A stretch of 64,000 nt of DNA, from positions 930,001-994,000 of the forward strand of contig NZ_KI421498.1 of NCBI RefSeq assembly GCF_000473105.1, in the 5' to 3' direction. The notes beneath the pieces are model-generated. The model was not told where the DNA came from. It ran no database searches and saw only the letters and a program-made list of their open reading frames with translations. The DNA is from Phaeobacter inhibens DSM 16374. Lineage in GTDB: Bacteria > Pseudomonadota > Alphaproteobacteria > Rhodobacterales > Rhodobacteraceae. Shown piece after piece: positions 5,237-41,277 of this stretch. How positions within the stretch are numbered: position 1 is the stretch's first letter; each line of letters opens with the position of its first letter. A program made the position numbers and the translations under genes.

Positions 5237-7888
5237 TTAACCGGCCAGCAGGGCCTCTGCCGCCTTGATCGCCTCCTCAGCGCCAGCGAAATCCTTGCCG
5301 CCGCCCTGCGCCATATCGGGACGGCCACCGCCGCCCTTGCCGCCGACCGCCGGAACCGCCGCCTTCAGGACATCAACCGCAGACACTTCTGCCGTCAGAT
5401 CATCCGTGACACCCGCGGCCACCGCCACCTTGCCACCATCATTGGCGATCAGCAGGATCACACCGGAGCCGATTTTCTGCTTATGGGCATCAATCAATCC
5501 ACGCAGGTCCTTGCCGGAGACACCTTCCAGCGCCTGACCGAGGAAAGTCTTGCCGCCGACCTCCTTGGTCTCTGAGGCGCCACCAGCACCGCCGCCCATC
5601 GCGACCTGCTGTTTCAGCTGCGACACCTCGTTTTGCAGCGCCTTGCGTTCATCCATCAGCGCCCTGAGACGGTCCATGACCTCCTCGGGCTGTGCCTTGA
5701 GGCTATTCGCCACCTCTGCCATCCGCAGGGCCTCTCGGTCGAGATGGGCAAAGGCCTCGGCACCGGTCAGCGCCTCGATCCGGCGCACACCGGCAGAAGA
5801 TGCACTGTCACTCAGGATCACAAATGTGCCGATGTCCCCGGTCCGGCGCACATGAGTGCCGCCGCACAGCTCGATCGAATAGGTGTTGCCATCCTGGCCC
5901 TTGCCGGTGGCGGCTTCGCCCATGGAGACCACGCGCACTTCGTCGCCGTATTTTTCACCGAACAGTGCCTGCGCGCCTAGGGCGCGGGCATCATCCGGCG
6001 TCATGATCCGGGTTTCAACGACGGTGTTCTGGCGAATAAACCGGTTCACATCAACGGCCACCCGGCGCAGTTCTTCCGCGCTCAGCGCCTTGCTATGGCT
6101 GAAGTCGAACCGCAGGCGATCATCCGCATTGAGCGAGCCGCGTTGCGCCACATGATCCCCCAGCGCCTCGCGCAGGGCCTCGTGCAGCAGATGCGTGGCG
6201 GAATGGTTCGCACGAATGGCGCTACGGCGGAGGTGATCCACCTCCAACTGGGCTGCGGCGCCTTTGGTGATCATGCCGCTCTCGACCTTGCCAAAGTGGA
6301 TAAAGACGCCAGCGGCTTTCTTGGTGTCCATCACCCGAACCACACCGCCATCGACACGGATCTCGCCGCTGTCGCCGACCTGCCCACCGGACTCCGCATA
6401 AAACGGGGTCTGATTCAGGACGACCTGCACATCGGTGCCGACACCGGCTTCGGCAACCTGGGCGCCATCAACCACAAGCGCCATGATCTGGCCTTCAGCC
6501 GCCTCGGTCTCATAGCCGAGGAAATCGGTGGTGCCAGCCTGATCAGCAACATCAAACCAGATGGTGCTGTCCGCCGATTCACCCGACCCTGACCATGCTG
6601 CGCGCGCCTTGGCCTTCTGCTCCGCCATAGCGCTGTCAAACCCGTCGGTGTCCACGGTCCGGCCCTTTTCGCGCAAGGCGTCCTGGGTCAGATCCAGCGG
6701 AAATCCGAAAGTGTCATAAAGCTTGAACGCCGCAGCACCGGGCAACGGAGCGCCCTCATCCAGACCGGACAATTCGTCGTCCAGCAGCTTCAGGCCGCGA
6801 TCCAGCGTCTGCTTGAACCGGGTCTCTTCCTGATGCAGCGTCTCTTCGATCATCGGCTGTGCGCGGCCCAGCTCAGGATAGGCTGCCCCCATCTGCTGCA
6901 CCAGCGCTGGCACCAAGCGGTGCATCACCGGATCCTTGGCGCCCAGAAGATGCGCATGACGCATCGCGCGGCGCATAATGCGACGCAATACATAGCCGCG
7001 CCCGTCGTTCGACGGCATCACACCATCGGCCATCAGGAAGGATGTCGAGCGCAAGTGGTCTGCAATCACCCGGTGGTGGACGTTCTGGTCACCATATGGA
7101 TCCACATTGGTCACATCGGCCGAGGCTTCGATCAAGGCCTTGAACAGGTCGGTGTCGTAGTTGTCGTGGCTGCCCTGCAAGAGTGCGCCGATCCGCTCCA
7201 GCCCCATGCCGGTATCGATCGACTGCATGTCGAGCGCCTTCATCGTGCCATCTTCGAACTGCTCGTTCTGCATGAAGACGACATTCCAGATCTCGATAAA
7301 CCGGTCGCCATCTTCATCGGCACTGCCCGGAGGGCCGCCCCAAATGTGATCGCCGTGATCATAGAAAATCTCGGTGCAGGGCCCACAGGGGCCGGTCGGC
7401 CCCATCTGCCAGAAATTGTCGGAAGTATCGATGCGAATGATCCGGTCTTCGGGCACGCCGACCTTCTTCCAGATCTCGAACGCCTCGTCATCGGTGTGAT
7501 AAACCGTGGTCAGAAGGCGGCTCTTGTCGATGCCGAATTCCTTGGTGATCAGCTCCCAGGCAAAGGGGATCGCCTCTTCCTTGAAGTAATCGCCAAAAGA
7601 AAAATTCCCCAGCATTTCAAAGAACGTATGGTGACGCGCGGTATAGCCGACATTGTCGAGGTCGTTGTGTTTACCGCCTGCCCGCACACATTTTTGCGAG
7701 GTCGTCGCGCGTTTGTAGTCGCGGGTTTCTACCCCGGTAAAGCAGTTCTTGAACTGAACCATGCCCGAGTTGGCGAACATCAGGGTTGGATCATTGCGCG
7801 GCACCAACGGGCTGGAGGACACAATCTCATGCCCTTGCTTTGCAAAGTAGTTCAGAAAGGTTGAGCGGATATCATTGAGCGTCGGCAT
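5237..7888 (-). CDS. alaS: alanyl-tRNA synthetase
   Basis: Class II aminoacyl-tRNA synthetase charging tRNA-Ala, with a built-in editing domain. The 883 residues match the normal length. Visible marks are [20 protein letters not shown] (class II motif 2 region), the editing-site [11 protein letters not shown] and CGGTHV zinc-binding motifs, and a Gly-rich C-terminal [16 protein letters not shown] typical of the C-Ala domain. The recA terminator at 7983-8010 separates it from recA, so it must have its own promoter in the 7889-7982 gap; I could not pick one out confidently. Confidence 0.98.
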
Positions 7889-7982
7889 AATCGGATCTCT
7901 CGGCTGGCTGTCTCAGCGGTTCGGGAAGATGTATCCGCCCCCAGAGAGCCTGTCCAGCGCTGCGGTGCGGAAAGCCGACATG

Positions 7983-8010
7983 AAAAAAGGGCGCGGAGAG
8001 ATCCGCGCCC
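7983..8010 (-). terminator. intrinsic terminator of recA
   Basis: On the minus strand a 9-bp stem GGGCGCGGA / TCCGCGCCC with a 4-base loop is followed by TTTTTT. It lies about 90 bases beyond the recA stop. The 90-base tail between them has no evident gene. Confidence 0.9.
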
Positions 8011-8100
8011 TGATTTGATCAGATTTTCCCAGCATTATCTGTGCTATGAACAGGTATTATCGCGTCTTGGCACATAACAGGGCCACCTGCGCCCTCATTG

Positions 8101-9168
8101 TCAGGCTTCCAGGATGTCGTCGTCCGCGCCTTCCGGTCGGTCAAACTCAAGCCCATGAGCCGCGCGGATCTTATCCTCGATATCATAGGCGATATGGGCG
8201 TTTTCACGCAGATAGGTTTTGGCGTTTTCACGCCCCTGCCCAATGCGCTCATCCCCGTAGGAGAACCAGGCACCGGATTTCGCCACAACACCTGCGGCAA
8301 CACCCAGATCCAGCAGTTCGCCCATCTTGGAGATGCCTTCACCATACATGATGTCGAATTCCACCTGTTTGAACGGTGGGGCCACTTTGTTCTTCACGAC
8401 CTTCACGCGGGTTGCGTTGCCGACGACCTCATCCCGGTCCTTGATCGCGCCGATACGGCGGATATCCAGGCGGACGGAGGAATAGAATTTCAGCGCGTTA
8501 CCACCAGTTGTGGTTTCGGGCGAGCCGAACATAACGCCAATCTTCATCCGGATCTGGTTGATGAAGATCACCATGCAGTTGGAACGGCTGATGGAGCCGG
8601 TCAGTTTGCGCATGGCCTGGCTCATCAGGCGGGCCTGCACGCCGACGCTGCTGTCGCCCATGTCCCCTTCCAGCTCCGACTTGGGTGTCAGCGCCGCAAC
8701 AGAATCCACGATCACCATGTTCACCGCCCCGGAGCGCACCAGAGTATCGGTGATTTCCAACGCCTGTTCACCGGTATCGGGCTGCGAAATCAGCAGCTCG
8801 TCCAGATCGACACCCAGCTTGGCCGCATACTGCGGGTCCAGCGCGTGTTCCGCATCCACAAAGGCGCAAACGCCGCCTTTCTTCTGCTGCTCTGCAATAC
8901 AATGCAGGGTCAGCGTTGTCTTGCCCGAGCTTTCAGGGCCGTAGATTTCAACGATACGCCCCATCGGCAAGCCACCGATACCCAGTGCGATATCCAGCCC
9001 CAGCGACCCGGTCGAGGAGGCCTCGATCTCATTCAGGGGGTTTCCGTCGCCGAGCTTCATAATGGAGCCCTTGCCGAACTGCCGCTCAATCTGCGCCAGG
9101 GCGCTATCAAGCGCCTTTTGTTTATCGCCGCTCTTCTTGTTGTCTTTCATGGTCAAAAGATCCGCCAT
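8101..9168 (-). CDS. recA: recombinase RecA
   Basis: ATP-dependent strand-exchange protein and LexA co-protease. With the start at 9168 (MADLLTMKD) it is 355 residues, the usual size. Walker [10 protein letters not shown] is at residues 77-85, and the L1/L2 region and the family-typical [19 protein letters not shown] are intact. The frame stays open to 9288, but that extension would run through the SOS box and promoter, and AAGGGACT sits just before the 9168 ATG. Expression is probably LexA-controlled through the box at 9225-9239. Confidence 0.98.
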
Positions 9169-9224
9169 AGTCCCTTGTCCCTTTCTATGTGTCACACCCG
9201 CGAGCGGGCGGCAATCACTGCTTT

Positions 9225-9239
9225 GTTCGCCTCTTGTTC
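9225..9239 (-). promoter_or_regulatory. SOS (LexA) box of recA
   Basis: The minus strand reads GAAC-N7-GAAC (GAACAAGAGGCGAAC), the direct-repeat LexA site known from Alphaproteobacteria. It lies 57-71 bases upstream of the recA ATG and overlaps the likely -10 element. Confidence 0.88.
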
Positions 9240-9268
9240 TATATGAGATCAAAAGGAGAACATTGCAA
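9238..9268 (-). promoter_or_regulatory. putative recA promoter
   Basis: The minus strand has TTGCAA at 9263-9268 and TATAGA at 9238-9243 (spacer 19; 18 if ATATAG is used). The -10 overlaps the edge of the SOS box, as expected for LexA repression by occlusion. Confidence 0.45.
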
Positions 9269-9372
9269 TGAAAATCTGACGTGGCCACTCCTGCCCTGAT
9301 CTGGTGGCCAAGAGGGTTAAGAGAGTGTTATCCAAGGTAGACCCTTCGTCTTAGCCGCGGATTTTTCACGCT

Positions 9373-9966
9373 ATGCTGATCTTTTTCAAGGAACGACTGG
9401 CGCTGCTGAGCGTGCCAAAAACTGGTACCACGGCCTATCAGGCGGCGCTGAGCGCACGTGCCGATATGGTATTTGCCAACCCGCCACAGCTGAAACACGC
9501 CCCTGTATACCGCTACAACCGCTGGATTCGCCCAATGTTGGCTAAGGTTTGCAACGCAGAAATGGAGCTGGTCGCTGTCATGCGCGAACCGGTCAGTTGG
9601 CTGGGCAGCTGGTACCGGTTCCGGCAGCGCGACGATCTGCGCGGCCATGCTAACAGTACGCTGGGGGTCAGTTTTGACGATTTTCTGCGGGATGCCTGCA
9701 AGGGGAAGCCGCCGCCCCATGCCGATGTCGGCAGCCAGGCCAAATTTCTGGAAGCCCAGCCCAATGGCTGCGCCGTCAGTCATTTATTCCGCTATGAGGA
9801 CCCAAACGCGCTTCACGGGTTCCTCAAGGAGCGTCTCCAGACCGAAATCGACCTGCCCCGCCTCAATGTCAGCCCGCAGGCTGATCTGGCTCCCAGCAGT
9901 GCTGCGCTGGAGGTTGTCAGACGCAAGCGAGCGGATGAGTTCGCACTCTATGCAGGCCTGAGCTGA
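9373..9966 (+). CDS. sulfotransferase-like protein (197 aa)
   Basis: Its N-terminus, LALLSVPKTGTTAYQ, resembles the 5'-phosphosulfate-binding loop (PKTGTT/S) of PAPS-dependent sulfotransferases. A REPVSWLGSWYRFR segment near residue 73 resembles the 3'-phosphate-binding strand (R-x-P-x-x-x-x-x-S) of the same fold. At 197 residues it is shorter than most sulfotransferases. The acceptor is unknown. No convincing ribosome-binding site precedes the ATG. The gene is divergent from recA and convergent with cckA. Confidence 0.65.
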   Translation: MLIFFKERLALLSVPKTGTTAYQAALSARADMVFANPPQLKHAPVYRYNRWIRPMLAKVCNAEMELVAVMREPVSWLGSWYRFRQRDDLRGHANSTLGVSFDDFLRDACKGKPPPHADVGSQAKFLEAQPNGCAVSHLFRYEDPNALHGFLKERLQTEIDLPRLNVSPQADLAPSSAALEVVRRKRADEFALYAGLS

Positions 9967-10030
9967 CGCCAGCACACTCGCTACCGGCCGGACTACGGGC
10001 ACAACCGTACCAGGGTCCGAACGCCGCCTG

Positions 10031-12346
10031 TTAATGCAGCTGTTCGTGAACAGTTTCTGTCAGCTGGTTGAGTGAGAAGGGTTTGGGCAGGAAGACCGAA
10101 TTCGGAACCGATGGCTCGGCCTCGCCAAAGGCCCCCTCGGCGTAGCCAGAGACAAAGACCACGCGGGTATCCGGACGCGTCTTCAGCGCCTCACGCACCC
10201 AGCTGGGCCCATCCATACCCGGCATCACCACATCAGTGACGAACACATCGACTGTCAGACCCGGATCTTCCAGGGTGCGCAACGCATCTTCGGCAGATTC
10301 CGCCTCAAGCACCGTATAGCCCCGCATCCGCAACGCACGGGACGCAAAGGCCCGTACGGGCGCTTCATCCTCCACCAGGAGAACAACCCCTTCGCCATGC
10401 TGAGCGGCAACCGGCTTTGCGGTTGCATCAACGGTGATCGCGGCAGCGGCTTCTGGCTCCACCTGCGTGTTCACCGGGAAGAACAGAGTGAACTGGGTGC
10501 CCTGATCCTTGATCGAGTCGACAAAGATATAGCCACCCGTCTGTTTGATGATGCCATAGGCTGTCGAAAGACCAAGCCCGGTCCCCTCACCCGTCCGTTT
10601 GGTGGTGTAGAAAGGTTCAAACACTTTTTGCAGCTTATCCGGGGATATACCGACGCCTTCATCGGAAACCTTGACGGTGACCCAGTCGCCAGCAGGTACA
10701 ACCGCGCGGTTGCGTTCCAGCGGTTGATCCAGCACCACGGCCTCGGTCTCGATACGGATCTCACCGCCCTGCGGCATCGCATCGCGCGCATTCACCACCA
10801 GATTCATCAACACCTGTTCCAGCTGACGTTTGTCCGCCCGGATCGACCGCATGACCGGATCATGGCTCAGCGTCAGCGTTACCTTCTCACCGACCAGTCG
10901 GTTCAACAGATGGGTAAGGTCAGACAGGGTGTCGCGCACATCCAGCACTTCAGGCTGCAAAGTCTGCTTACGCGAGAATGCCAGCAGCTGGCTTACAAGA
11001 GCCGCCGCGCGATTGGCGTTTTCATGGATCTGGATCAGGTCGCCAAAATCCTGATCGCCCTGATCATGGCGCAACAGCAGCAGATCGCAATGCCCCGAAA
11101 TGGCCGTCAGCAGGTTGTTGAAATCATGCGCCACACCACCAGCCAACTGGCCAATCGCCTGCATCTTCTGGCTCTGGACGAATTGCGCCTCCAGCGTTTT
11201 CAGCTCAGTCGCATCGTTCAGCACCGCGATGAGGACGGTTTCCCCTTCCTCAATAACCCGCGTAAGGGTCACCTGCACAAAGACTTCCTTGTCACGACGT
11301 GTCAGGCGCAAGAATTCGGATTTATGCGAGGCCTGCCCGTCAGCGGTGTCGCGCAGCCAGTCCGACATCGGACGGCCAAGACCATCCATCAACTGGCCGA
11401 TATTCCGATTGCCGCAGGAGCTGATGCCAAGCAGATGCATCCCCAGCTTATTCGCCGAGAGCAGTGTTCCTTTGGGGTCCACCTTAACAAACGGTACCGG
11501 CAGGCTCTCGAGAGAGGCCTGACCGACCGAGGTTTCGTTGTCAGCCAGTTGCAGGAAATATAGTTCGCTGCGTCCCTGACTGCGGTTCTTCTCGCAGACC
11601 AGAACCTCAATCAACCCGCTTTTGGTGCTCATGGTGTTGATCTGTCCGGACAGCACCGGCAAGGATGTGAAAAGACGATCGGTGGACTTCACCCGTTCGC
11701 CAATCAGACTGCGGGCCGCCTCGTTCATGAACAGAACCGCCCCGGTCCGACCGACCGTCAGCATCGGAATCGGCACCGCATCGGCGCCACGGCTGGTGGT
11801 GGGACGATCCGTGATCTCCTCCACCCGCCACAGAAAGCTACCGCCCTGCATCTGATGGACGGCCAGCCGCACATGGCCGCGGCGCGTCACGATATCTTCG
11901 CGCGCGGCCCCGTCAACACGGGCACGGCTTTGCAGGCGGAACAGAACTGCCGAGGGATTGGCGAGGATTGATCGCAACGTGCCCGCAAGCGTTTCGGTAT
12001 CGGCATCCGCAAAGCGTTTCAGCGCCGCCCCGTTGGAGGCGTGGATCATCCCGTCATCATCGCAGACGAAGGTCGCGGTCGCATCTTTGTCGATGAACCC
12101 GGTGAGCAGAGCAGCCGCCATTGACCGGGCTCGCAGCCGGGTACGCGCCTGCACCAGCATCATCAGCGCCACGGCAATCAGCGTCAGGCCAACAGCCACA
12201 AGCCCGCGCGTGATCCACTCCGGCGTCTGAAACAGCCAGGGCGCGGTGATGACCATGCCCGACAAAAGCAAAACCGCCGCCAGGCGAGCATGTTCCGGCG
12301 TGTAGACGCGCAACTGTGGAACGGGTGAAGCATGGCGACCGTTCAT
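10031..12346 (-). CDS. cckA: hybrid sensor histidine kinase CckA
   Basis: Membrane-bound hybrid kinase that in Alphaproteobacteria feeds the ChpT-CtrA phosphorelay (cell cycle in Caulobacter; motility and gene transfer agents in Rhodobacterales). At 771 residues it has two membrane helices (about 22-40 and 48-66), PAS-like regions (about 90-400), a HisKA domain with GGVAHDFNN (His407), an HATPase with DEGVGI and GTGLGLS (about 562-595), and a C-terminal receiver with [11 protein letters not shown] (Asp705). The HDFNN H-box is the CckA hallmark. The upstream gap holds a TTAA-N7-TTAAC CtrA site. It follows the RsmB-type gene on the same strand, with a 93-bp gap. Confidence 0.93.
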
Positions 12347-12392
12347 TGCGGCTCCCTCGATGAATTTATGTGCTTATATCGAGACGAATTAG

Positions 12393-12408
12393 GTTAAAAC
12401 TGCGTTAA
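12393..12408 (-). promoter_or_regulatory. CtrA-binding site upstream of cckA
   Basis: The minus strand reads TTAACGCAGTTTTAAC, an exact TTAA-N7-TTAAC match to the CtrA consensus. It lies 47-62 bases upstream of the cckA ATG. It is the only such full site I noticed in the window. Confidence 0.65.
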
Positions 12409-12439
12409 TACCGCAGGATCCGAATTGCCTTAAAGTCGA

Positions 12440-13651
12440 TCAATCGTCGCCGAAACGGGACAGAACAGCAACATAGAAACCATCTGTTCCACCGTGGACC
12501 TGCCAGCCGTGATCCTGTTGCAACTGCCAATTAGGGTTCCTGGCCAGGAATGCCGCGACCTGATCGCAGTTTTCCGCATTCAGCATCGAGCAGGTCGCAT
12601 AGGCCAGCGTTCCACCGGTTGCCACCAACTGGCTGGCGTCGTTCAGGATCTGCGCCTGTGTCTGGCACAGGTCATCCAGCCGCGCCTGCGTCAGGCGCCA
12701 TTTGCCTTCGGGCGCGCGCCGCCAGGAGCCGGAGCCGGAACAGGGTGCGTCGCATAGCACCAGATCAAACGGGGCTTTGGCAGCAACATCATCAGGCGCC
12801 AGCACTGTGATCGCAGCCCCAGCCCGGTCTGCGCGTGCAGGAAGGTCTTTCATCCTTTGCGGCGCGATATCATGGGCAAAAACTGCAAGATTTCCTCGCG
12901 CTGCGATGGCGAGGCTCTTACCGCCGCCACCAGCACAGAAATCAAGCACCCGCTGACCGTCAGCCAAGGGCAGCGCCTCGATCACCGCCTGACTGGCGGC
13001 ATCCTGCAATTCGACCAATCCGGTCAGATAGGCCGAACTGTTGCGCAGCTTGCGCGCCCCTTCGGTCACTGACAGCGCCGTATCCGCCGCGGGGTGCGCT
13101 TCGGCAAGGATCCCCTCCTCCGACAGCGCGATCAAAGCTGCGTCGCGATCGGTTTTTCGCTGGTTGACGCGCAGATGCACTGGCGCGCGCTGCTGCAACG
13201 CCCGCGCTGCCGCCTCTGCGGCATCGCCAAGGCTGGCCGCAAACGCAGGCCAGAGCCAGTCCGGAATATCAAGCGCCTCCGTCGGCTGCATCTGAGGCGC
13301 AGTGCTGATCGCGGCCTCCTCGGCGGGTTCAAGCGGCGCAGGCGCGTGGCCTACTCCGTTGAATATCTCAGCCACATCAACGCCTTCTGCCCGCAGAGCC
13401 CCCAACATCAGCTGCCGACCCGTTGTGTTGGCATCAGAGATCTCCCCCGCGCCACCACCGCCCCCAAGGGCTGCATAGGAACGCAGGCACCGCAGGGCCG
13501 CAAAAACATGGTCACGCACCGCTGCGCGATCTTTGGATCCGGCAAAGCGGCTCCGTCGCGCCCAGGCCGTCAGTGCTTTTTCAGCAGGCTCTCCTGTCAG
13601 GATGTGATCGAGGATTTCGATAGCGGCCTGGCGGCGGGCAGCCGGGGTCAT
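12440..13651 (-). CDS. RsmB/NOP-family RNA (cytosine-C5) methyltransferase
   Basis: SAM-dependent rRNA m5C methyltransferase of the RsmB/NOP2 family, 403 residues. The N-terminal ~130 residues resemble the NusB-like RNA-binding part (RQAAIEILDHILTGEPAEKALTAW). The Rossmann methylase follows, with VLDFCAGGGGKSLAIAA and DAPCSGSGSWRRAPEGKWR. The second conserved Cys is in YATCSMLNAEN. This is the two-cysteine mechanism of the family. It sits 50 bases after guaB with no terminator between, so guaB and this gene may be co-transcribed. The exact rRNA position modified cannot be read from sequence. Confidence 0.9.
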   Translation of the reverse strand: MTPAARRQAAIEILDHILTGEPAEKALTAWARRSRFAGSKDRAAVRDHVFAALRCLRSYAALGGGGGAGEISDANTTGRQLMLGALRAEGVDVAEIFNGVGHAPAPLEPAEEAAISTAPQMQPTEALDIPDWLWPAFAASLGDAAEAAARALQQRAPVHLRVNQRKTDRDAALIALSEEGILAEAHPAADTALSVTEGARKLRNSSAYLTGLVELQDAASQAVIEALPLADGQRVLDFCAGGGGKSLAIAARGNLAVFAHDIAPQRMKDLPARADRAGAAITVLAPDDVAAKAPFDLVLCDAPCSGSGSWRRAPEGKWRLTQARLDDLCQTQAQILNDASQLVATGGTLAYATCSMLNAENCDQVAAFLARNPNWQLQQDHGWQVHGGTDGFYVAVLSRFGDD

Positions 13652-13701
13652 ACCCCGGCCTCTTGGTGATGCGTCACAGTCATTGGGCAGCGCTCCTGTC
13701 T

Positions 13702-15414
<1,713 letters not shown>

Positions 15415-16590
15415 ATGATCCGCCCCCTCAGCGATATTGTTGTTCTCGACCTTACCCATGTGCTGGCTGGCCCCTATGCCTCCATGACGCTGCGCGATCT
15501 TGGCGCGCGGGTGATCAAGGTAGAACGACCGGGCCATGGCGATGACACCCGCGCCTTCCCGCCCTTCAAAGATGGCGACAGCGCCTATTTCTCCACTATC
15601 AACCACGGCAAGGAGAGCATCGCCCTGGATCTGCGCGCCGAGGAAGATCGCGGAATCTTCGAAAAGCTGTTGACACAGGCCGATGTGATCCTCGAAAATT
15701 TTCGCCCCGGCGTGATGGAGCGGCTCGGCTATGGCTGGGAAGCGCTCCATGCCCGTTTCCCAAAACTTGTCTATGGCGCGGTCTCCGGCTTTGGCCATAC
15801 CGGCCCCGACCGGCTGCGTCCGGCCTATGACATGGTGGTACAGGCCCGTGGCGGGGTGATGTCAATCACCGGCGAGCGCGACCGCGAACCAGTGCGCGTC
15901 GGCGCCTCCATCGGCGATATCGCAGCGGGTATGTTCCTGTGTCAGGGCGTATTGGCGGCGCTCTATGCGGTGCGAGGTGGCGCGCCCGGTCAAAAGGTGG
16001 ATATCGCCATGCTCGACAGCCAGCTGGCGCTGCTGGAGCACGCGGTGGCTATCACCTCGGTGACTGGTGAGGCACCGCGCCCGTCGGGGGCGCGTCACCC
16101 GTCGATCACCCCGTTTGAGACGTTCCACGCCAGCGACGGGTTGTTTGTGATCGCGGCTGGCAACGACACGCTGTTTGCGACCCTTTGTACAGCGCTGGAC
16201 CTGCCGCTGGCCACAGATGCGCGCTTTGCCAGCAATCAGGCGCGCTGCGAAAACGCGCGCCTTCTCAAACGCTTGATTGAGGCAGTGACCCTGGACCAGC
16301 CCGCATCCTATTGGATCGACCGGCTGCAGCGCGCCGGTGTGCCGACCGGTCCGATCCAATCTGTGGCCGAGGTGATGCGGGATCCCCAGATCCTGGCCCG
16401 CAATATGCTGGTGGATGTCTGCGACCAAGAGGGCACCCCGCGGTTCAAAGCAGCGGGCAATCCGGTCAAACTCTCTGCCCTGCCCGACGAGACAACACGC
16501 CCGCCTGCGCCGATGCTCGACGAACACCGAGCCCAGATCCTGAATTGGCTGGGTGAAATCGCTTCAGGTCCACCAGTCAACGACACCTGA
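15415..16590 (+). CDS. CaiB/BaiF-family (class III) CoA transferase
   Basis: Family III CoA transferase moving CoA between carboxylic acids. With the start at 15415 it has 391 residues, the usual length. It begins PLSDIVVLDLTHVLAGPYASM, then has the substrate-loop motif ILENFRPGVMERLGYG and a putative catalytic Asp168 in VGASIGDIAAGMF. AGGAG lies 8 bases upstream of the chosen ATG. The frame extends to 14944, overlapping guaB, and is rejected. The substrate is unknown; there is no metabolic operon partner next to it. Confidence 0.93.
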   Translation: MIRPLSDIVVLDLTHVLAGPYASMTLRDLGARVIKVERPGHGDDTRAFPPFKDGDSAYFSTINHGKESIALDLRAEEDRGIFEKLLTQADVILENFRPGVMERLGYGWEALHARFPKLVYGAVSGFGHTGPDRLRPAYDMVVQARGGVMSITGERDREPVRVGASIGDIAAGMFLCQGVLAALYAVRGGAPGQKVDIAMLDSQLALLEHAVAITSVTGEAPRPSGARHPSITPFETFHASDGLFVIAAGNDTLFATLCTALDLPLATDARFASNQARCENARLLKRLIEAVTLDQPASYWIDRLQRAGVPTGPIQSVAEVMRDPQILARNMLVDVCDQEGTPRFKAAGNPVKLSALPDETTRPPAPMLDEHRAQILNWLGEIASGPPVNDT

Positions 16591-16751
16591 GGCCGACTGA
16601 TTTGGATCGCCAAACCACCGCCCGGAGCTGTCTTTTCCTAAAACCACGCAGAAATGACGCCACGAGACTGCAAAATGACGCGCGCCGCCTTTCCTCGCGC
16701 CGAAAACGCCATATGCTCCGCCCAAACCGCGCAAGCAAGATAGGTACAGGC
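16591..16751 (+). other. intergenic gap before the RamA-like gene (161 bp)
   Basis: No terminator, riboswitch or promoter stands out. An in-frame ATG at 16713 could extend the next protein by 13 residues, but the 16752 ATG with ACAGG upstream fits the homology start better. Confidence 0.4.
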
Positions 16752-18848
16752 ATGGCAAACGATCCCGCCCCCGAGATCTCGACCGAGACCGCAACTGATC
16801 CCGCATCGCATCCGCTGGTGGTCTTCACCCCTTCCGGCAAACGTGGCCGGTTTCCGGTCGGCACTCCGGTCCTGACCGCGGCGCGTCAGCTGGGGGTCGA
16901 TCTGGATTCGGTCTGCGGCGGGCGTGGCATCTGTTCGAAATGTCAGATCACGCCCTCTTATGGTGAGTTCTCCAAACATGGTGTGACAGTCGCTGACGAC
17001 GCCCTGACCGAATGGAACAAGGTCGAACAGCGCTATAAGGACAAACGCGGCCTGATCGACGGGCGGCGACTGGGGTGTCAGGCGCAGGTCCAAGGCGATG
17101 TGGTGATCGACGTGCCGCCGGAAAGCCAGGTCCACCGCCAAGTCGTGCGTAAGCGTGCCGAAGCGCGCGACATCACCATGAACCCCTCCACCCGCCTTTA
17201 TTATGTCGAGGTGGAAGAACCCGACATGCATAAACCCACAGGCGATATGGAGCGGCTGATCGAGGCGCTGGATGCGCAATGGGATCTGAAAGGTGTCAAA
17301 ACCGACCTGCATATCCTGAGCGTGCTGCAACCGGCCCTGCGCAAGGGCGGCTGGAAGGTTACCGTGGCCGTGCATCTGGGCGATGAAAACCACCCACCCA
17401 AGATTATGCACATCTGGCCCGGTTTCTACGAAGGCTCAATCTATGGTCTGGCGGTTGACCTTGGCTCAACCACCATCGCCGCGCACCTGTGCGATCTGAA
17501 AACCGGCGACGTCGTGGCCTCCTCCGGCATCATGAACCCGCAGATCCGCTTTGGCGAAGACCTGATGAGCCGGGTTTCCTATTCGATGATGAACAAAGGC
17601 GGCGATCAGGAGATGACCCGCGCGGTACGCGAGGGCATGAATGCGCTGTTCACCCAGATCGCAGCAGAGGCAGAAATTGACAAGGCGCTGATCGTGGACG
17701 CAGTCTTTGTCTGCAACCCGGTGATGCACCACCTGTTCCTCGGCATCGATCCGTTTGAACTGGGTCAGGCGCCCTTTGCGCTGGCGACCTCCAATGCGCT
17801 GGCACTGCGCGCGGTGGAGCTGGACCTCAATATTCACCCGGCCGCCCGTGTCTACCTCCTACCCTGCATTGCCGGCCATGTGGGTGCCGATGCTGCGGCG
17901 GTCGCCCTGTCGGAAGCGCCTGACAAATCCGAGGATCTGGTGCTAGTGGTGGACGTCGGCACCAACGCGGAAATCCTGCTCGGGAACAAGGACAAGGTGC
18001 TGGCCTGCTCCTCCCCCACCGGGCCGGCGTTTGAGGGCGCGCAGATCTCCAGCGGTCAGCGCGCTGCTCCCGGTGCAATTGAACGAGTCGAGATCAACCC
18101 GGAAACCAAGGAACCGCGCTTCCGGGTGATCGGCTCCGACATTTGGTCGGATGAGGACGGTTTTGCTGCGGCAGTCGCCACCACCGGCATCACTGGTATC
18201 TGCGGATCCGGCATCATCGAGGCGATTGCCGAAATGCGCATGGCCGGGTTGCTGGATGCCTCTGGCCTGATCGGTTCGGCAGAACAAACTGGCACGACAC
18301 GCTGCATTCAGGACGGACGCACCAATGCCTATCTGCTGTGGGACGGCTCTGTCGAGGGTGGCCCGACCATCACCGTGACCAACCCCGACATCCGCGCGAT
18401 CCAGATGGCCAAAGCGGCGCTTTATTCCGGCGCGCGCCTCCTGATGGACAAATTCGGCATTGATACCGTCGATCGGGTGGTGCTGGCGGGCGCCTTTGGC
18501 GCGCATATCTCCGCAAAACACGCGATGGTCCTCGGTATGATCCCTGATTGTCCGCTGGACAAGGTGACCAGTGCGGGCAATGCCGCAGGCACCGGCGCCC
18601 GCATTGCGCTGCTCAACACGGAGGCCCGCAGCGAGATTGAGGCCACTGTGCAGCAGATCGAAAAGATCGAAACCGCAGTGGAGCCACGGTTTCAGGAGCA
18701 TTTCGTCAATGCCTCTGCGATCCCGAACTCCGCAGAACCGTTCCCGATCCTGAACAGCATCGTCACCCTGCCAGAGGCGAACTTCAACACAGGAGGTAGC
18801 GACGGCAATGACGATGGCGGACGCCGTCGGCGGCGGCGGCGCGGGTAA
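16752..18848 (+). CDS. RamA-like ASKHA/DUF4445 protein with N-terminal 2Fe-2S domain (corrinoid reductive activator)
   Basis: 698 residues. The N-terminal plant-type 2Fe-2S ferredoxin domain has Cys55, Cys61, Cys64 and Cys109 (VCGGRGICSKC ... LGCQ). A linker follows, then an ASKHA-type ATPase fold with AVDLGSTTIAAHL, VVDVGTNAEI, GICGSGIIEA and LAGAFGAHI. Family members use ATP to reduce Co(II) corrinoid proteins back to Co(I). I recall that in the roseobacter Phaeobacter inhibens a RamA-like protein supports a divided B12-dependent methionine synthase; the same role is inferred here. No corrinoid protein or methyltransferase is adjacent. The C-terminus ends in an unusual Arg-rich tail. Confidence 0.88.
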   Translation: MANDPAPEISTETATDPASHPLVVFTPSGKRGRFPVGTPVLTAARQLGVDLDSVCGGRGICSKCQITPSYGEFSKHGVTVADDALTEWNKVEQRYKDKRGLIDGRRLGCQAQVQGDVVIDVPPESQVHRQVVRKRAEARDITMNPSTRLYYVEVEEPDMHKPTGDMERLIEALDAQWDLKGVKTDLHILSVLQPALRKGGWKVTVAVHLGDENHPPKIMHIWPGFYEGSIYGLAVDLGSTTIAAHLCDLKTGDVVASSGIMNPQIRFGEDLMSRVSYSMMNKGGDQEMTRAVREGMNALFTQIAAEAEIDKALIVDAVFVCNPVMHHLFLGIDPFELGQAPFALATSNALALRAVELDLNIHPAARVYLLPCIAGHVGADAAAVALSEAPDKSEDLVLVVDVGTNAEILLGNKDKVLACSSPTGPAFEGAQISSGQRAAPGAIERVEINPETKEPRFRVIGSDIWSDEDGFAAAVATTGITGICGSGIIEAIAEMRMAGLLDASGLIGSAEQTGTTRCIQDGRTNAYLLWDGSVEGGPTITVTNPDIRAIQMAKAALYSGARLLMDKFGIDTVDRVVLAGAFGAHISAKHAMVLGMIPDCPLDKVTSAGNAAGTGARIALLNTEARSEIEATVQQIEKIETAVEPRFQEHFVNASAIPNSAEPFPILNSIVTLPEANFNTGGSDGNDDGGRRRRRRRG

Positions 18849-36187: not shown

Positions 36188-36961
36188 CTACAGCGCGGTC
36201 CAGCCACCATCGACGCTCAGGGTGGTGCCAGTCATCTGCGCCGCCGCATCGGAACAGAGGAACACTGCCGTGCCGCCCAGCTGTTCAACCGTTGCAAACT
36301 CGCGCGAGGGCTGGCGTTCCAGCATCACCTTCTTGATCACCTCTTCCCGGCCCATATTATATTTTTCCATCGTATCGGGGATCTGCGCCTCCACCAGCGG
36401 GGTCAGCACATAGCCCGGGCAGATCGCATTGGCGGTGATCGGCTCCTCTGCGGTTTCCAGGGCCAGCGTCTTGGTCAAACCGACAACGCCATGTTTGGCG
36501 GCGACATAGGCCGATTTGTAAGGGGACGCCGTCAAACCATGCGCCGAAGCGATATTGATCACCCGGCCCCAGCCTGCGCCGCGCATCATCGGCAGGGCCG
36601 CAGCGGCGGTGTGAAAGGCTGACGACAGGTTGATGGCAAGGATTGCGTTCCACTTGTCGACCGGAAACTCATCCACTGGCGCCACATGCTGGATCCCTGC
36701 ATTATTGATCAGGATGTCGCAGCGACCGGATGTGGTGATCAGGGCGCGACAGGCCTCTGCATCGGACATATCTGCCTGAATATAACGTGCCTCAACGCCG
36801 AACTCGGCAGCGATCTCGGCGGCCAGCGCATGGTCCTCGTCACGGTCGGTAAAGGAGTTCAGAACCACATCCGCCCCGGCACGCGCCATCTCCCGCGCAA
36901 CCCCAAGACCAATACCGGAATTCGACCCGGTAATCACCGCACATTTGCCGCTCAACGTCAT
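36188..36961 (-). CDS. bdhA: 3-hydroxybutyrate dehydrogenase (SDR family)
   Basis: 257-residue short-chain dehydrogenase oxidising 3-hydroxybutyrate to acetoacetate in polyhydroxybutyrate turnover. It has the NAD loop TGSNSGIG (11-18), NNAG (86-89) and catalytic Ser139, Tyr152 and Lys156. SAHGLTASPYKSAYVAAKHG is the pattern of true 3-hydroxybutyrate dehydrogenases. The C-terminal PLVEAQIPD also fits the family. Start at 36961 follows GGAAGG; a longer frame to 37066 is rejected. The 5' region includes the candidate attenuator/sRNA at 37064-37131. Confidence 0.92.
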   Translation of the reverse strand: MTLSGKCAVITGSNSGIGLGVAREMARAGADVVLNSFTDRDEDHALAAEIAAEFGVEARYIQADMSDAEACRALITTSGRCDILINNAGIQHVAPVDEFPVDKWNAILAINLSSAFHTAAAALPMMRGAGWGRVINIASAHGLTASPYKSAYVAAKHGVVGLTKTLALETAEEPITANAICPGYVLTPLVEAQIPDTMEKYNMGREEVIKKVMLERQPSREFATVEQLGGTAVFLCSDAAAQMTGTTLSVDGGWTAL

Positions 36962-37063
36962 CTTGCTCTTCCCTTCCTGTGCAAAACCTGATTGGTGCAA
37001 CTGTGGCATGCTGCACCTGCAAAGGAAACGGCAATCACCGCGTGAAAGTTGCAAGAAACCGGT

Positions 37064-37125
37064 CAAAAAAAGAGCCTGCCCGCAGACAGCTGACGCCGAT
37101 CAGGTGACATCCGGATTGAGGCTCT
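37064..37125 (-). terminator. intrinsic terminator of candidate sRNA 2
   Basis: The 7-bp stem AGAGCCT/AGGCTCT, enclosing a 41-base structured loop, is followed by an uninterrupted T-run on the minus strand. The loop is long, so strength is uncertain. Confidence 0.5.
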
Positions 37126-37131
37126 GCGGGT
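37064..37131 (-). ncRNA. candidate small RNA 2 (or bdhA leader/attenuator)
   Basis: Predicted start near 37131, seven bases after a -10 box, and end at the T-run near 37064, about 68 nt. The 3' end is AGAGCCT (37119-37125) pairing with AGGCTCT (37071-37077), followed by TTTTTT. An alternative stem CCCGCAG/CTGCGGG (37124-37130 with 37079-37085) would compete with it. An internal hairpin CCGGAT/ATCGG is also possible. It could be a stand-alone sRNA or an attenuated leader of bdhA, whose ATG is about 100 bases further on. Confidence 0.5.
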
Positions 37132-37137
37132 CAACGC

Positions 37138-37166
37138 ACCGTAGGAATTGGGAACCGCAAGGTCAA
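37138..37166 (-). promoter_or_regulatory. sigma-70-like promoter of candidate sRNA 2
   Basis: TTGACC (37161-37166), 17-bp spacer, TACGGT (37138-37143) on the minus strand. The -35 box begins inside the T-run of the upstream terminator. Confidence 0.5.
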
Positions 37167-37193
37167 AAAAAACGCCCGCACGAAGCGGGCGTT
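37165..37193 (-). terminator. strong intrinsic terminator of candidate sRNA 1
   Basis: Perfect 9-bp stem AACGCCCGC / GCGGGCGTT with a 5-base loop, then a run of T on the minus strand. The nearest annotated gene on its right is on the opposite strand. Confidence 0.88.
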
Positions 37194-37240
37194 AAGTTAT
37201 TGAGGCAGGTTTCATACAGGCAAGAAACCTATCGAGCAGT
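37165..37240 (-). ncRNA. candidate small RNA 1
   Basis: Predicted ~76-nt transcript from a near-consensus promoter, start about A37240, to a strong terminator. Hairpin 1 is AGGTTTC/GAAACCT (37207-37230) with a 10-base loop reading TTGCCTGTAT. A single-stranded stretch (GCCTCAATAACTT) follows, then the GC-rich terminator. This is the classic layout of an Hfq-dependent sRNA. No gene on the minus strand upstream could own this terminator, which is the main argument. I could not match it to a known sRNA family. Confidence 0.6.
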
Positions 37241-37246
37241 GAGACC

Positions 37247-37275
37247 TTTATAAGCAATTTCCCCCGCTCATCCAA
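37247..37275 (-). promoter_or_regulatory. sigma-70-like promoter of candidate sRNA 1
   Basis: TTGGAT (37270-37275), exactly 17-bp spacer, TATAAA (37247-37252) on the minus strand. Four of six bases match at -35 and five of six at -10; one of the best promoter matches in the window. Confidence 0.65.
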
Positions 37276-37355
37276 GCTAAAAGTTTGAATTGACCCGACA
37301 GCGCCGTTAGCGTTGGTGTTCATGAAAATAAGGCCAGAGCGGGATTGTTGCAAAA

Positions 37356-39182
37356 GTGCGTCCAGATTTTTTCTTTAGAGTTCGACCGGCCTTGGCCGGA
37401 ATCATCCTCAGCGCAAGCGTTAATTTTGCACAAGCAGAATCAGCGCATGGCATAGCTATGTATGGGGACCCGGCCCTACCACCGGATTTTGTGTCTTTAC
37501 CCTATGCAAACGCCGAGGCGCCCAAGGGTGGCAAGGTGGTCTTCGGCAACACCGGTGGCTTTGATACGCTGAACCCTTTTGCCCCAAAAGGCACGCCGCC
37601 CTGGCAGATGCGCTTCTGGGGATATGAGAGCCTGATGGGGCGTTCTGCGGACGAGGCATTCACGCTCTATGGGCTGCTCGCCGAATCGATTGAGGTGCCG
37701 GGTGATCGCGCATGGGTTGAATTTACGCTACGTCCGGAGGCCCGATTCTCCGATGGTTCACCAGTCACGGTCGCAGATGTCATCTGGTCCTATGAAACCC
37801 TCGGACAGGAGGGGCATATCCGCTATCGGCGGTTCTGGAACCAGATCGACAGCATCGAACAAACGGGCGAGCGCAGCCTGCGCATAACCTTTAATGAGGA
37901 CAACCGTGAACTGGCGCTCATCGCGGGCCTGCGTCCGATCCTGAAAAAGGGACAGTGGGACGGCAAGGATTTTGCCGCCTCCGGCCTGGATGAAGCCCCA
38001 ATCGGCTCCGGACCTTATACCGTTGCTGCATTCGAACCCGGCCGATTCATCCGTTTTTCCCGCAATCCCGACTACTGGGGGCGCGATCTGCCCTTGCGAC
38101 GCGGCACCAATAACTTCGATGAGATCCGGCTGGATTTTTATGGCGACCAAACCGTATTGCTGGAAGCCTTCAAAGCGGGCGAGATTTCTGCGATCCGGGA
38201 GTTCAACGCCGCAAAATGGGACAAGGCGTATGATTTTCCGGCGATCGCCATTGGCGACGTCGTCAAGACCGTCATCCCCAATGGCAAACCCTCCGGCATG
38301 ACGGGCATCGCAATGAACACCCGCCGCGCGCCCTTCGACGACTGGCGCGTGCGCGAAGCGCTGATCCGGGCCTTCAACTTCGAATATATGAACGAGACGC
38401 TGACAGGCGGAACCCAGCCGCGCATTTCGTCTTATTTTTCCAATTCCTATCTGGCCCTGCAACCCGGCCCCGCCGAGGGCAAGGTGCGCACGCTCCTGGC
38501 CCCATTTGAGGAAAGCCTGCTCCCCGGTGTGCTGGAAGGCTATAGCCTGCCTGTTAGCGATGGCACTGAGCGCAATCGCAAGAACCTGCGCGCGGCGACA
38601 AAACTTCTCGCGGAGGCAGGCTGGACCGTTCAGGACGGCGTTATGCGCAATGCCGAGGGTGAGGCGCTGGAGTTGCAGGTCCTGCTGACCCCCGGCAACC
38701 TCGGCGAAGGCGAAATGCGCTCCGTTGTGGAAATCTACGCCCGCGCTTTGGAACGTCTTGGCATCTCTCTGTCATCTGACATTGTCGACAGCGCCCAGTT
38801 TGTGCAGCGCCAGCAGGCGTTTGACTATGACATGACCTTCTTCCGCCGGGCGATGTCACTGAGTCCCGGTAACGAACAATATCTCTATTGGGGCAGTACT
38901 GCGGCGCAACAGAAAGGGTCGCGCAATCTGATCGGGATTGAGGACCCGGCGGTAGATGCCATGATCGACGCGATGCTGGTCTCAACCAGCAAGGAGGATT
39001 TCACCGCTGCCGCCCGCGCATTGGATCGCCTGTTGACGGCCGGTCGCTATGTGATCCCGGTCTGGCAATATGCCGAGGGGCGCATCGCTCATGTGAAGGA
39101 GCTGAAATTTCCGGACCGGCGACCGGTCAGCGGCGATGGGATCACTTACATGCCCGAGGTCTGGTGGTATCAGGCCGACTGA
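37356..39182 (+). CDS. extracellular solute-binding protein, family 5 (YejA-like)
   Basis: 608-residue periplasmic binding protein of an oligopeptide-type ABC system. Signal peptide: basic FRVRPALAGIILSASVNFAQA, cut before ESAHG. The family pattern is clear: LPPDFVSLPYANAEAPKGG, FTLRPEARFSDGSPVTVADVIWSYETL, SGPYTV and NTRRAPFDDWRVREALIRAFNFEYMN, as in YejA. The start is a GTG at 37356; a stop at 37329 limits the frame upstream. No permease or ATPase genes follow, so this is an orphan binding protein. It ends in a strong terminator. Confidence 0.92.
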   Translation: MRPDFFFRVRPALAGIILSASVNFAQAESAHGIAMYGDPALPPDFVSLPYANAEAPKGGKVVFGNTGGFDTLNPFAPKGTPPWQMRFWGYESLMGRSADEAFTLYGLLAESIEVPGDRAWVEFTLRPEARFSDGSPVTVADVIWSYETLGQEGHIRYRRFWNQIDSIEQTGERSLRITFNEDNRELALIAGLRPILKKGQWDGKDFAASGLDEAPIGSGPYTVAAFEPGRFIRFSRNPDYWGRDLPLRRGTNNFDEIRLDFYGDQTVLLEAFKAGEISAIREFNAAKWDKAYDFPAIAIGDVVKTVIPNGKPSGMTGIAMNTRRAPFDDWRVREALIRAFNFEYMNETLTGGTQPRISSYFSNSYLALQPGPAEGKVRTLLAPFEESLLPGVLEGYSLPVSDGTERNRKNLRAATKLLAEAGWTVQDGVMRNAEGEALELQVLLTPGNLGEGEMRSVVEIYARALERLGISLSSDIVDSAQFVQRQQAFDYDMTFFRRAMSLSPGNEQYLYWGSTAAQQKGSRNLIGIEDPAVDAMIDAMLVSTSKEDFTAAARALDRLLTAGRYVIPVWQYAEGRIAHVKELKFPDRRPVSGDGITYMPEVWWYQAD

Positions 39183-39293: not shown

Positions 39294-40127
39294 ATGGAAA
39301 TAGAAATCACATCGCAACTTTCTGCATTGGCGCACCCAAATCGGCTGGCACTGTTCCGCCTGCTGATGCGACGCTATCCCGATGCTGTCCCCGCTGGTGA
39401 GATCGCCGCCGCCCTGGCGCAGAAGGCCAACACCGTTTCCAGCTACCTCTCGACCCTCAGCGCCGTCGGCTTGATCCGTGCTGAGCGGCAAGGCACCTCG
39501 TTGCTCTACCGGGCACAATTGGACGGGTTGCGTAATCTGTTCGACGATCTGCTATCGGACTGCTGTCACAATCGTCCGGATATTTGCCCGCCTACCGTGG
39601 CGCAGACCCCCTTGCTGCCCGGCAGCGACCGACCCCTAAATGTTCTGTTTATCTGCACTGGCAACTCCGCCCGCTCCATCATGGCGGAGGCGATCCTGCA
39701 GCAGCATAGCGATGGACGGTTTCACGCCTATTCCGCAGGCAGCCGCCCATCCCCCGCGCCGCGTCCTGAGGTTCTGAGCCTGTTGCGCGCAAACGGACAT
39801 GAGACCGGCGGGCTTCGCTCAAAAGATCTCAGCGAATTCTCTGGAGATGATGCCCCACCAATGGATTTCATCTTCACCGTCTGCGATCACGCCGCAAATG
39901 AAGATTGCCCGGCCTGGCCCGGCCAGCCCATGAGTGCCCATTGGGGCCTCCCCGATCCCGTCAAAGCCAAAGGGCGAGAGGCAGAAAGACGTCTGGCATA
40001 TCAGCAAACCTATGACGCGCTGCGCAACCGCATCCGCAGCTTCGCCGCGCTCCCCTATGAAACACTTGACCGCATATCATTGCAGCACCGGCTGGATGAC
40101 ATCGGCCGTCATACACCCTCTGAATAA
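39294..40127 (+). CDS. ArsR-type repressor fused to ArsC-type arsenate reductase
   Basis: 277 residues in two parts. Residues 1-100 form an ArsR winged helix (HPNRLALFRLLM, NTVSSYLSTLSAVGLIRAERQGTSLLY). Cys90, Cys91 and Cys98 (DCCHNRPDIC) resemble the C-terminal arsenite-sensing cysteines of Acidithiobacillus-type ArsR. Residues 115-277 form a low-molecular-weight phosphatase / thioredoxin-dependent ArsC domain: P-loop CTGNSARS (Cys121), then Cys197 and Cys205 (VCDHAANEDC). The fusion probably senses As(III) and also reduces As(V). First gene of ars-arsC-aqpS. Confidence 0.9.
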   Translation: MEIEITSQLSALAHPNRLALFRLLMRRYPDAVPAGEIAAALAQKANTVSSYLSTLSAVGLIRAERQGTSLLYRAQLDGLRNLFDDLLSDCCHNRPDICPPTVAQTPLLPGSDRPLNVLFICTGNSARSIMAEAILQQHSDGRFHAYSAGSRPSPAPRPEVLSLLRANGHETGGLRSKDLSEFSGDDAPPMDFIFTVCDHAANEDCPAWPGQPMSAHWGLPDPVKAKGREAERRLAYQQTYDALRNRIRSFAALPYETLDRISLQHRLDDIGRHTPSE

Positions 40128-40147
40128 CCATCAAACGAGTTCATCAC

Positions 40148-40624
40148 ATGAATATTCTCGTCCTCTGCACGGGCAACTCTGCACGCTCCATCCTGCTGGA
40201 AACTCTCTTGAACAGCCATGGAACAGGCCGGGTCAAAGCCTATTCCGCAGGCTCCAAGCCGGCTGGATCAGTCCACCCACAGTCGCTGGCACTTCTGGCG
40301 GAGAAAGGCCACGACACCAGCGCTGCACGGTCGAAGAGCTGGGATGAGTTTGCGTCTGAGGGGGCACCTCAGATGGATCTGGTGATCACCGTCTGTGCCT
40401 CCGCTGCGGGCGAGACCTGCCCGATCTGGCCCGGCACCCCGCTGCGCGCCCATTGGGGCGTCGAAGATCCCGCTGCGGCTGCCAGCCCCGATTGGGACGC
40501 CGCCTTTCGCATTGCCTATGACCGGCTGGAGCGACGCGCCCACGCATTTCTAAACCTGCCACTGGAGCACATCAACACCGACGACCTGCGCCAAGACCTG
40601 ATCCGGATCGGAGAGCTGCCATGA
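40148..40624 (+). CDS. arsC: arsenate reductase ArsC (thioredoxin-type, LMW-PTP fold)
   Basis: 158-residue stand-alone copy of the same fold as the upstream fusion. The P-loop CTGNSARS carries the nucleophile Cys7; the redox pair is Cys83 and Cys91 (VCASAAGETC), matching the three-cysteine relay of pI258-type ArsC. It reduces arsenate to arsenite using thioredoxin. It lies 20 bases after the fusion gene and overlaps aqpS by four bases (ATGA). Two ArsC domains in one operon are redundant unless they differ in substrate. Confidence 0.92.
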   Translation: MNILVLCTGNSARSILLETLLNSHGTGRVKAYSAGSKPAGSVHPQSLALLAEKGHDTSAARSKSWDEFASEGAPQMDLVITVCASAAGETCPIWPGTPLRAHWGVEDPAAAASPDWDAAFRIAYDRLERRAHAFLNLPLEHINTDDLRQDLIRIGELP

Positions 40625-41277
40625 CCACGCAAAAACTAATCGCCGAAGCGCTCGGCACCGGTTTTCTGCTGATCGGCGTTGTGGGGTCGGGCATCATGGC
40701 CGAAACCCTGTCGGGTGGAAACATCGGGTTGGCGCTGCTGGCCAATGCGGTGGCAACGGGCGCGATGCTCTATGTGATCATCACAACGCTGGGGCCGATT
40801 TCTGGCGCACATTTCAACCCGGCGGTCACGCTTGCCTTTGCGCTGCGCGGCGATCACAGCTGGGCTGCGGTTCCGCAGTATGTGTCTGCGCAGATCATTG
40901 GCGGCATCCTCGGCGTCTGGGCCAGCCATGTGATGTTTGATCTGACCATCCTGCAGACCTCCACCACCATGCACCGGACCGGGGGCGCTCAATGGTTTTC
41001 GGAAATCCTTGCGACATTTGGTCTGCTGTTCGTGATTTTTGGCGGGTTACGCTCCCGTCCTGAGGCTGTTCCTGCCCTCGTCGCCTTTTATATCACGGGC
41101 GCCTATTGGTTTACCGCCTCCACCAGTTTTGCCAATCCAGCGGTGACGGTTGCGCGCGGGTTCAGTGATACATTTGCGGGCATCTACCCCGGCCATATTC
41201 TGATGTTCATCGTCATGCAGTTCATCGGTGTTGGTCTGGCGCATCTGATCCTGCCGCGCCTGTTTCGACCCAGTTGA
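40621..41277 (+). CDS. aqpS: aquaglyceroporin of arsenic operon (AqpS-like)
   Basis: 218-residue MIP-family channel with six membrane helices. Both pore motifs are intact: NPA at 66-68 (SGAHFNPAVT) and NPA at 172-174 (TSFANPAVTVARG). By analogy with Sinorhizobium meliloti arsR-aqpS-arsC, it lets arsenite made inside the cell flow out down its gradient. It overlaps arsC by four bases. No ArsB or Acr3 pump and no ArsH is in the window, so the channel would be the only exit encoded here. Confidence 0.92.
   Translation: MTTQKLIAEALGTGFLLIGVVGSGIMAETLSGGNIGLALLANAVATGAMLYVIITTLGPISGAHFNPAVTLAFALRGDHSWAAVPQYVSAQIIGGILGVWASHVMFDLTILQTSTTMHRTGGAQWFSEILATFGLLFVIFGGLRSRPEAVPALVAFYITGAYWFTASTSFANPAVTVARGFSDTFAGIYPGHILMFIVMQFIGVGLAHLILPRLFRPS

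Follow-up and report, generated by a model that had tools for sequence, protein, structure and literature searches.

The gap between bdhA and a divergent gene for a family-5 ABC-type solute-binding protein (SBP_bac_5) marks a short stretch of the Phaeobacter inhibens DSM 16374 genome in which a small RNA gene, here called unit 1, is predicted on the minus strand. The gap lies in a 64,000-nucleotide stretch of DNA, referred to below as the window. Positions of the genes and of the elements discussed are given in Table 1. According to the original prediction, unit 1 consists of the promoter TTGGAT-17-TATAAA, a transcript of about 76 nt with a hairpin, and a perfect 9-bp terminator followed by a T-run, and all of these are found in the letters. 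As had been stated, the terminator cannot belong to a minus-strand gene further upstream, since the neighbour at 37356 is on the plus strand.

Table 1. Genes and predicted elements in and around the bdhA/binding-protein gap
Feature	Position	Strand	Remarks
bdhA, 3-hydroxybutyrate dehydrogenase	36188..36961	minus	TIGR01963 above cut-off; downstream of unit 1
Proposed unit 2	37065..37164	minus	Rejected as functional unit
Unit 1, predicted sRNA gene	37165..37240	minus	Predicted 76-nt transcript ACUGCUCG...UUUUUUUU; R1 covariance match 109 bits
Unit 1, intrinsic terminator	37165..37193	minus	Stem 37193-37171, 9 perfect pairs, then T8 ending at 37165
Unit 1, near-invariant 40-nt core	37201..37240	minus	5' end, hairpin and CUGCCUC linker
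Unit 1, 5' hairpin	37231-37206	minus	8 pairs, 10-nt loop UUGCCUGUAU; stem UAGGUUUC/GAAACCUG
Unit 1, -10 box TATAAA	37252-37247	minus	17 bp from the -35 box
Unit 1, -35 box TTGGAT	37275-37270	minus	Kept as CTTGG
Predicted promoter of the binding-protein gene, TTGAAT-17-TAGCGT	37285..37313	plus	TTGAAA-17-TAGCTT in relatives
SBP_bac_5 gene, family-5 ABC-type solute-binding protein	37356..39182	plus	Divergent from unit 1

The predicted +1 of unit 1 is A37240, 6 nt past the -10 box. In its 17-bp spacer, its 6-nt distance to the start and its A at -7, the unit 1 promoter fits mapped sigma-70 promoters of alphaproteobacteria (PMC8407463). RpoHI is a less likely sigma factor because T at -9 is absent (PMC3441632); RpoHII is possible. 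Tried with two alternative 5' ends, the fold of unit 1 beats 200 out of 200 dinucleotide shuffles (z -4.05 and z -5.16). Unit 1 also spells a possible 7-codon reading frame (MKPASIT), the stop of which is variable and the start lost in some members. The short peptide was rejected as the product of unit 1, as neither start nor stop is conserved across relatives.

Distribution and pattern of change of unit 1

Used as a DNA query, unit 1 finds matches in 25 of 25 genomes of the same family, and in none of the 16 other alphaproteobacteria sampled. The search was extended with R1, a covariance model of unit 1, in a sample of 394 Rhodobacteraceae genomes, approximately one per genus. R1 matches the gene in 384 of them. 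Among genomes of good quality the gene is found in 345 of 347, nearly always as a single copy; the two genomes lacking a match are fragmented assemblies, and several weak matches correspond to copies cut by contig ends. A second genus was sampled in depth, which is probably Paracoccus, being nearest to P. pantotrophus DNA, and unit 1 was found by R1 in all of its 113 good genomes. Outside Rhodobacteraceae, R1 yields zero matches among about 380 alphaproteobacterial genomes. Phages and viral contigs contain no match either, and a phage or viral origin of unit 1 was rejected on this ground.

The gene is otherwise chromosomal, but in Paracoccus its location is a chromid or megaplasmid, 1.5-2.2 Mb in size (NZ_CP038206.1, NZ_CP035287.1, CP038202.1, NZ_CP038196.1). 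Both neighbours of unit 1 are retained in the two secondary-replicon records of Paracoccus examined.

The promoter is conserved at a fixed position. In an alignment of 51 loci, almost every one from a genus of its own, the TTG of the -35 box is in place in 47 and TATAAA, TATAAG or TATAAC in 44, TTG and TATAA thus holding fixed positions in >85% of the loci. Strict conservation starts at the predicted +1, and approximately 40 nt from there (ACUGCUCGAUAGGUUUCUUGCCUGUAUGAAACCUGCCUC) are without change in nearly all genera sampled. Across 26 distinct sequences, none of the 8 hairpin pairs is broken or altered; covariation is therefore uninformative for this stem. The terminator evolves in a different way: 6 of its 9 pairs are altered on both sides, by compensatory changes, and the shape is retained. 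The helix features 28 double-change cells versus 6 in shuffles, none of the 500 shuffles being as good, and for every covariation measure used it outdoes all 500 shuffles as well as all slid controls. Synteny and covariation across Rhodobacteraceae had been proposed as a check of the locus, and the position of the promoter and the terminator stem of unit 1 are indeed conserved. In the rare divergent copies the loop and the CUGCCUC linker are the parts best retained. One of these copies (L206) carries a C-G in place of a U-G pair, others are altered at the 5' end.

The stretch downstream of unit 1

The original prediction viewed the locus as two tandem, chained or duplicated sRNAs, the second one (unit 2) starting from TTGACC...TACGGT. 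These letters are present, as are a stem GAGCCT/AGGCTC and a T7 run at 37065-37071, so that motifs and two T-runs occur at the places given. The standard promoter scan calls no promoter in the unit 2 region, and the structure of unit 2, leader included, is unremarkable relative to shuffles (z -0.6). Conservation in related genomes had been proposed as a further check, and in congeners it speaks against the unit, which is 27-52% identical, versus 69-98% for flanking DNA, and is the fastest-changing stretch of the bdhA/binding-protein gap. In the two nearest species 37164-37065 is 50-52% identical, with flanks at 98-100%, and in three further congeners identity falls to 27-40%. TTGACC, TACGGT and the T7 run are not retained even in the two nearest species. 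Unit 2 was discarded as a second sRNA, its hexamers, stem and T-run being lost within the genus, and its letters probably arose by chance.

Unit 2 is unrelated to unit 1 in sequence. The motif GGTTTCTTGC does occur twice, as had been noted; the second copy (37061-37052) falls within a separately conserved region upstream of bdhA, and does not mark a second sRNA. Two tandem, chained sRNAs are accordingly an extremely improbable reading of this locus. On its side are the motif letters and the two T-runs, and an observation from elsewhere: in one other genus (L217; G307:C15:38105-38180, minus strand) the intact sRNA gene is accompanied, approximately 1.8 kb away, by a clear tandem copy that has degenerated. 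The copy retains loop and terminator and has a broken stem. The sRNA gene is therefore capable of duplication.

Genes flanking unit 1

The neighbourhood of unit 1 was compared at 59 loci. A divergent family-5 binding-protein gene lies upstream in 57, and bdhA lies downstream in 46, often within 110-280 nt. One of the loci lacking a downstream bdhA is cut off by a contig edge. No bdhA is found within 1.5 kb downstream in at least 10 loci; unrelated, mostly convergent genes, which by their translations encode an MFS transporter, a DUF502-type protein, an Mfd-like helicase or LivM, are found instead, and unit 1 is intact. Unit 1 is likewise intact in two loci in which an XRE-type regulator takes the place of the binding-protein gene. 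Its persistence where one or the other neighbour is missing therefore argues against unit 1 being a leader of bdhA or a by-product of the binding-protein gene.

The proximity of bdhA on the same strand, in most loci and at short distance, would suit an attenuated 5' leader of bdhA, prematurely terminated as UpsM is for the dcw genes. UpsM, derived from the dcw 5' UTR in R. sphaeroides, is likewise a short terminated RNA upstream of a same-strand gene, but stems from partial termination of a long leader, whereas unit 1 persists where no same-strand gene follows. The stretch between the terminator and bdhA is not conserved, bdhA has a conserved upstream region of its own, and no conserved alternative antiterminator partner was found. 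Together with the loci devoid of bdhA, these data make the leader highly improbable. Upstream of bdhA a short sequence, TTTGCAGGTGCAGCATG (37007-37023, minus strand), is conserved across genera; we take it to resemble a TGCA-rich PhaR-type operator.

The -35 boxes of unit 1 and of the binding-protein gene are 9 bp apart, and the two divergent promoters may therefore influence each other; the spacing to the start codon of the binding-protein gene is conserved at about 115 bp. Peptide-binding proteins are frequent sRNA targets, as known for GcvB and AbcR. Unit 1 could then mainly regulate the SBP_bac_5 gene, either through the shared promoter DNA or by pairing. The adjacency to a gene for an ABC solute-binding protein recalls RNAs of the GcvB/AbcR type, but differs from them in that no pairing signal to the mRNA of the neighbour is observed; we know of no sequence relation between unit 1 and GcvB or AbcR. 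RNAduplex energies of unit 1 with the 5' region of the adjacent mRNA show no excess over shuffles (mean z -0.1, 57 loci), and in a ranking of 45 window genes by pairing the two neighbours are 17 and 30, the latter being the binding-protein gene. Given these figures, and the two loci in which the RNA persists without that gene, such a main role is unlikely. The link to the binding protein that had been suggested holds as divergent synteny, and was not recovered as functional pairing with the mRNA.

A block, CAAACTTTTAGCTTGG (37270-37295), is common to both divergent promoters. Its TTTGAA half is lost in the two loci lacking the binding-protein gene, its CTTGG half is kept. On the plus strand the binding-protein gene is followed by an arsenic-type cluster (39294-41277), in which an ArsR-like HTH and a low-molecular-weight phosphatase domain form one fused protein, together with another phosphatase of this type and an aquaporin-family channel.

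Nature of unit 1 and relation to known RNAs

As judged from sequence comparisons, unit 1 is a predicted 76-nt transcript unit that has its own promoter and does not depend on its neighbours; its 5' half is structured and near-invariant, and its terminator covaries. The conserved promoter, the 40-nt core, the covarying terminator and the near-universal single copy uphold the initial call of an sRNA. The gene very probably stands on its own and encodes a small regulatory RNA; single-copy throughout Rhodobacteraceae, it would be the founding member of an sRNA family that is not in Rfam. The locus had been thought undescribed, and appears to be so: neither the unit 1 stretch nor its counterparts in twelve diverse relatives hit an Rfam family at the gathering score, and core fragments of unit 1 were not found printed in the literature searched. 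The family is new and apparently unnamed.

Unit 1 is probably an Hfq-dependent, trans-acting regulator. It would be transcribed by the housekeeping (sigma-70/CarD-type) polymerase, and its U-tail (U8) would bind Hfq. Base pairing in trans would involve the loop, the CUGCCUC linker and the unpaired 5' end ACUGCUCGA, and would change how several conserved mRNAs, or another RNA, are translated or decay. A search of 16 genomes of the family for exact 11-nt matches complementary to three candidate seeds reveals no conserved target, and in 25 genomes the exact 11-mer seed complements found are chance matches, or in-gene matches common to near kin. A simple seed-type sRNA would not usually keep both hairpin strands invariant, and something besides pairing may maintain this invariance. 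Forty nucleotides kept nearly unchanged across hundreds of genera may exceed the needs of a few mRNA seeds. Tentatively, unit 1 could be a core RNA of the family, acting as a global regulator, an RNA sponge or a protein-binding RNA with a conserved core partner, rather than as an ordinary stress sRNA.

It is rare for a bacterial sRNA to occur throughout a whole family and at the same time to change so little. As a core post-transcriptional regulator of a group that ranks among the most abundant marine bacteria, unit 1 is a strong candidate. R1 provides a covariance model ready for the annotation of the family, and the gene is a clear candidate for deletion in model strains.

Unit 1 might alternatively be a divergent member of a described family, such as MmgR (suhB, RF00519) or StsR. 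The suhB/MmgR family is the one most like unit 1; both are short autonomous RNAs whose layout of two hairpins is similar, with a 5' hairpin, a pyrimidine-rich linker and a strong terminator. In Sinorhizobium, MmgR has a role in PHB metabolism, and bdhA adjoins unit 1. The core sequences are however unrelated, and unit 1 scores 24.3 bits, versus a gathering score of 41 bits. A better suhB/MmgR-like RNA (37 bits, just below gathering) resides outside the window, about 95 kb away on the same contig of the source genome (G000:C6:871844-871919); it has orthologous-looking matches in congeners, and is not recognised in the R1 search. StsR (RSs0827) of Rhodobacter sphaeroides is a 72-nt orphan, Hfq-bound sRNA (PMC8307010). 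It resembles unit 1 in being a short orphan sRNA of the same bacterial family, but the published probe target, CCGTTCTACCTTCACTGTCC (PMC11354728), is absent from unit 1, and R1 places unit 1 at a separate site in StsR-bearing genomes. Identity with StsR was ruled out by probe sequence and location, and membership of unit 1 in a described family is, overall, very unlikely.

RNAs catalogued by transcript surveys in the family were also considered. In Paracoccus denitrificans, 'Intergenic 134' is an 84-nt intergenic RNA, confirmed by RT-PCR and covered by 5,830-17,250 reads, with homologues across Rhodobacteraceae and the same context in R. sphaeroides; matches in Streptomyces and Rhizobiales are also reported (PMC5107571). 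By coordinate order (759993-760077, minus strand) it probably maps to chromosome 2, and unit 1 is found on chromids in other Paracoccus species. The Streptomyces and Rhizobiales matches set it apart from unit 1, which has no matches in the class outside the family. Unit 1 may be Intergenic 134 of P. denitrificans, a likeness drawn from description and coordinate order. A study of R. sphaeroides compiles 79 sRNAs (PMC8625941), and the unit 1 RNA may be among these under a locus number.
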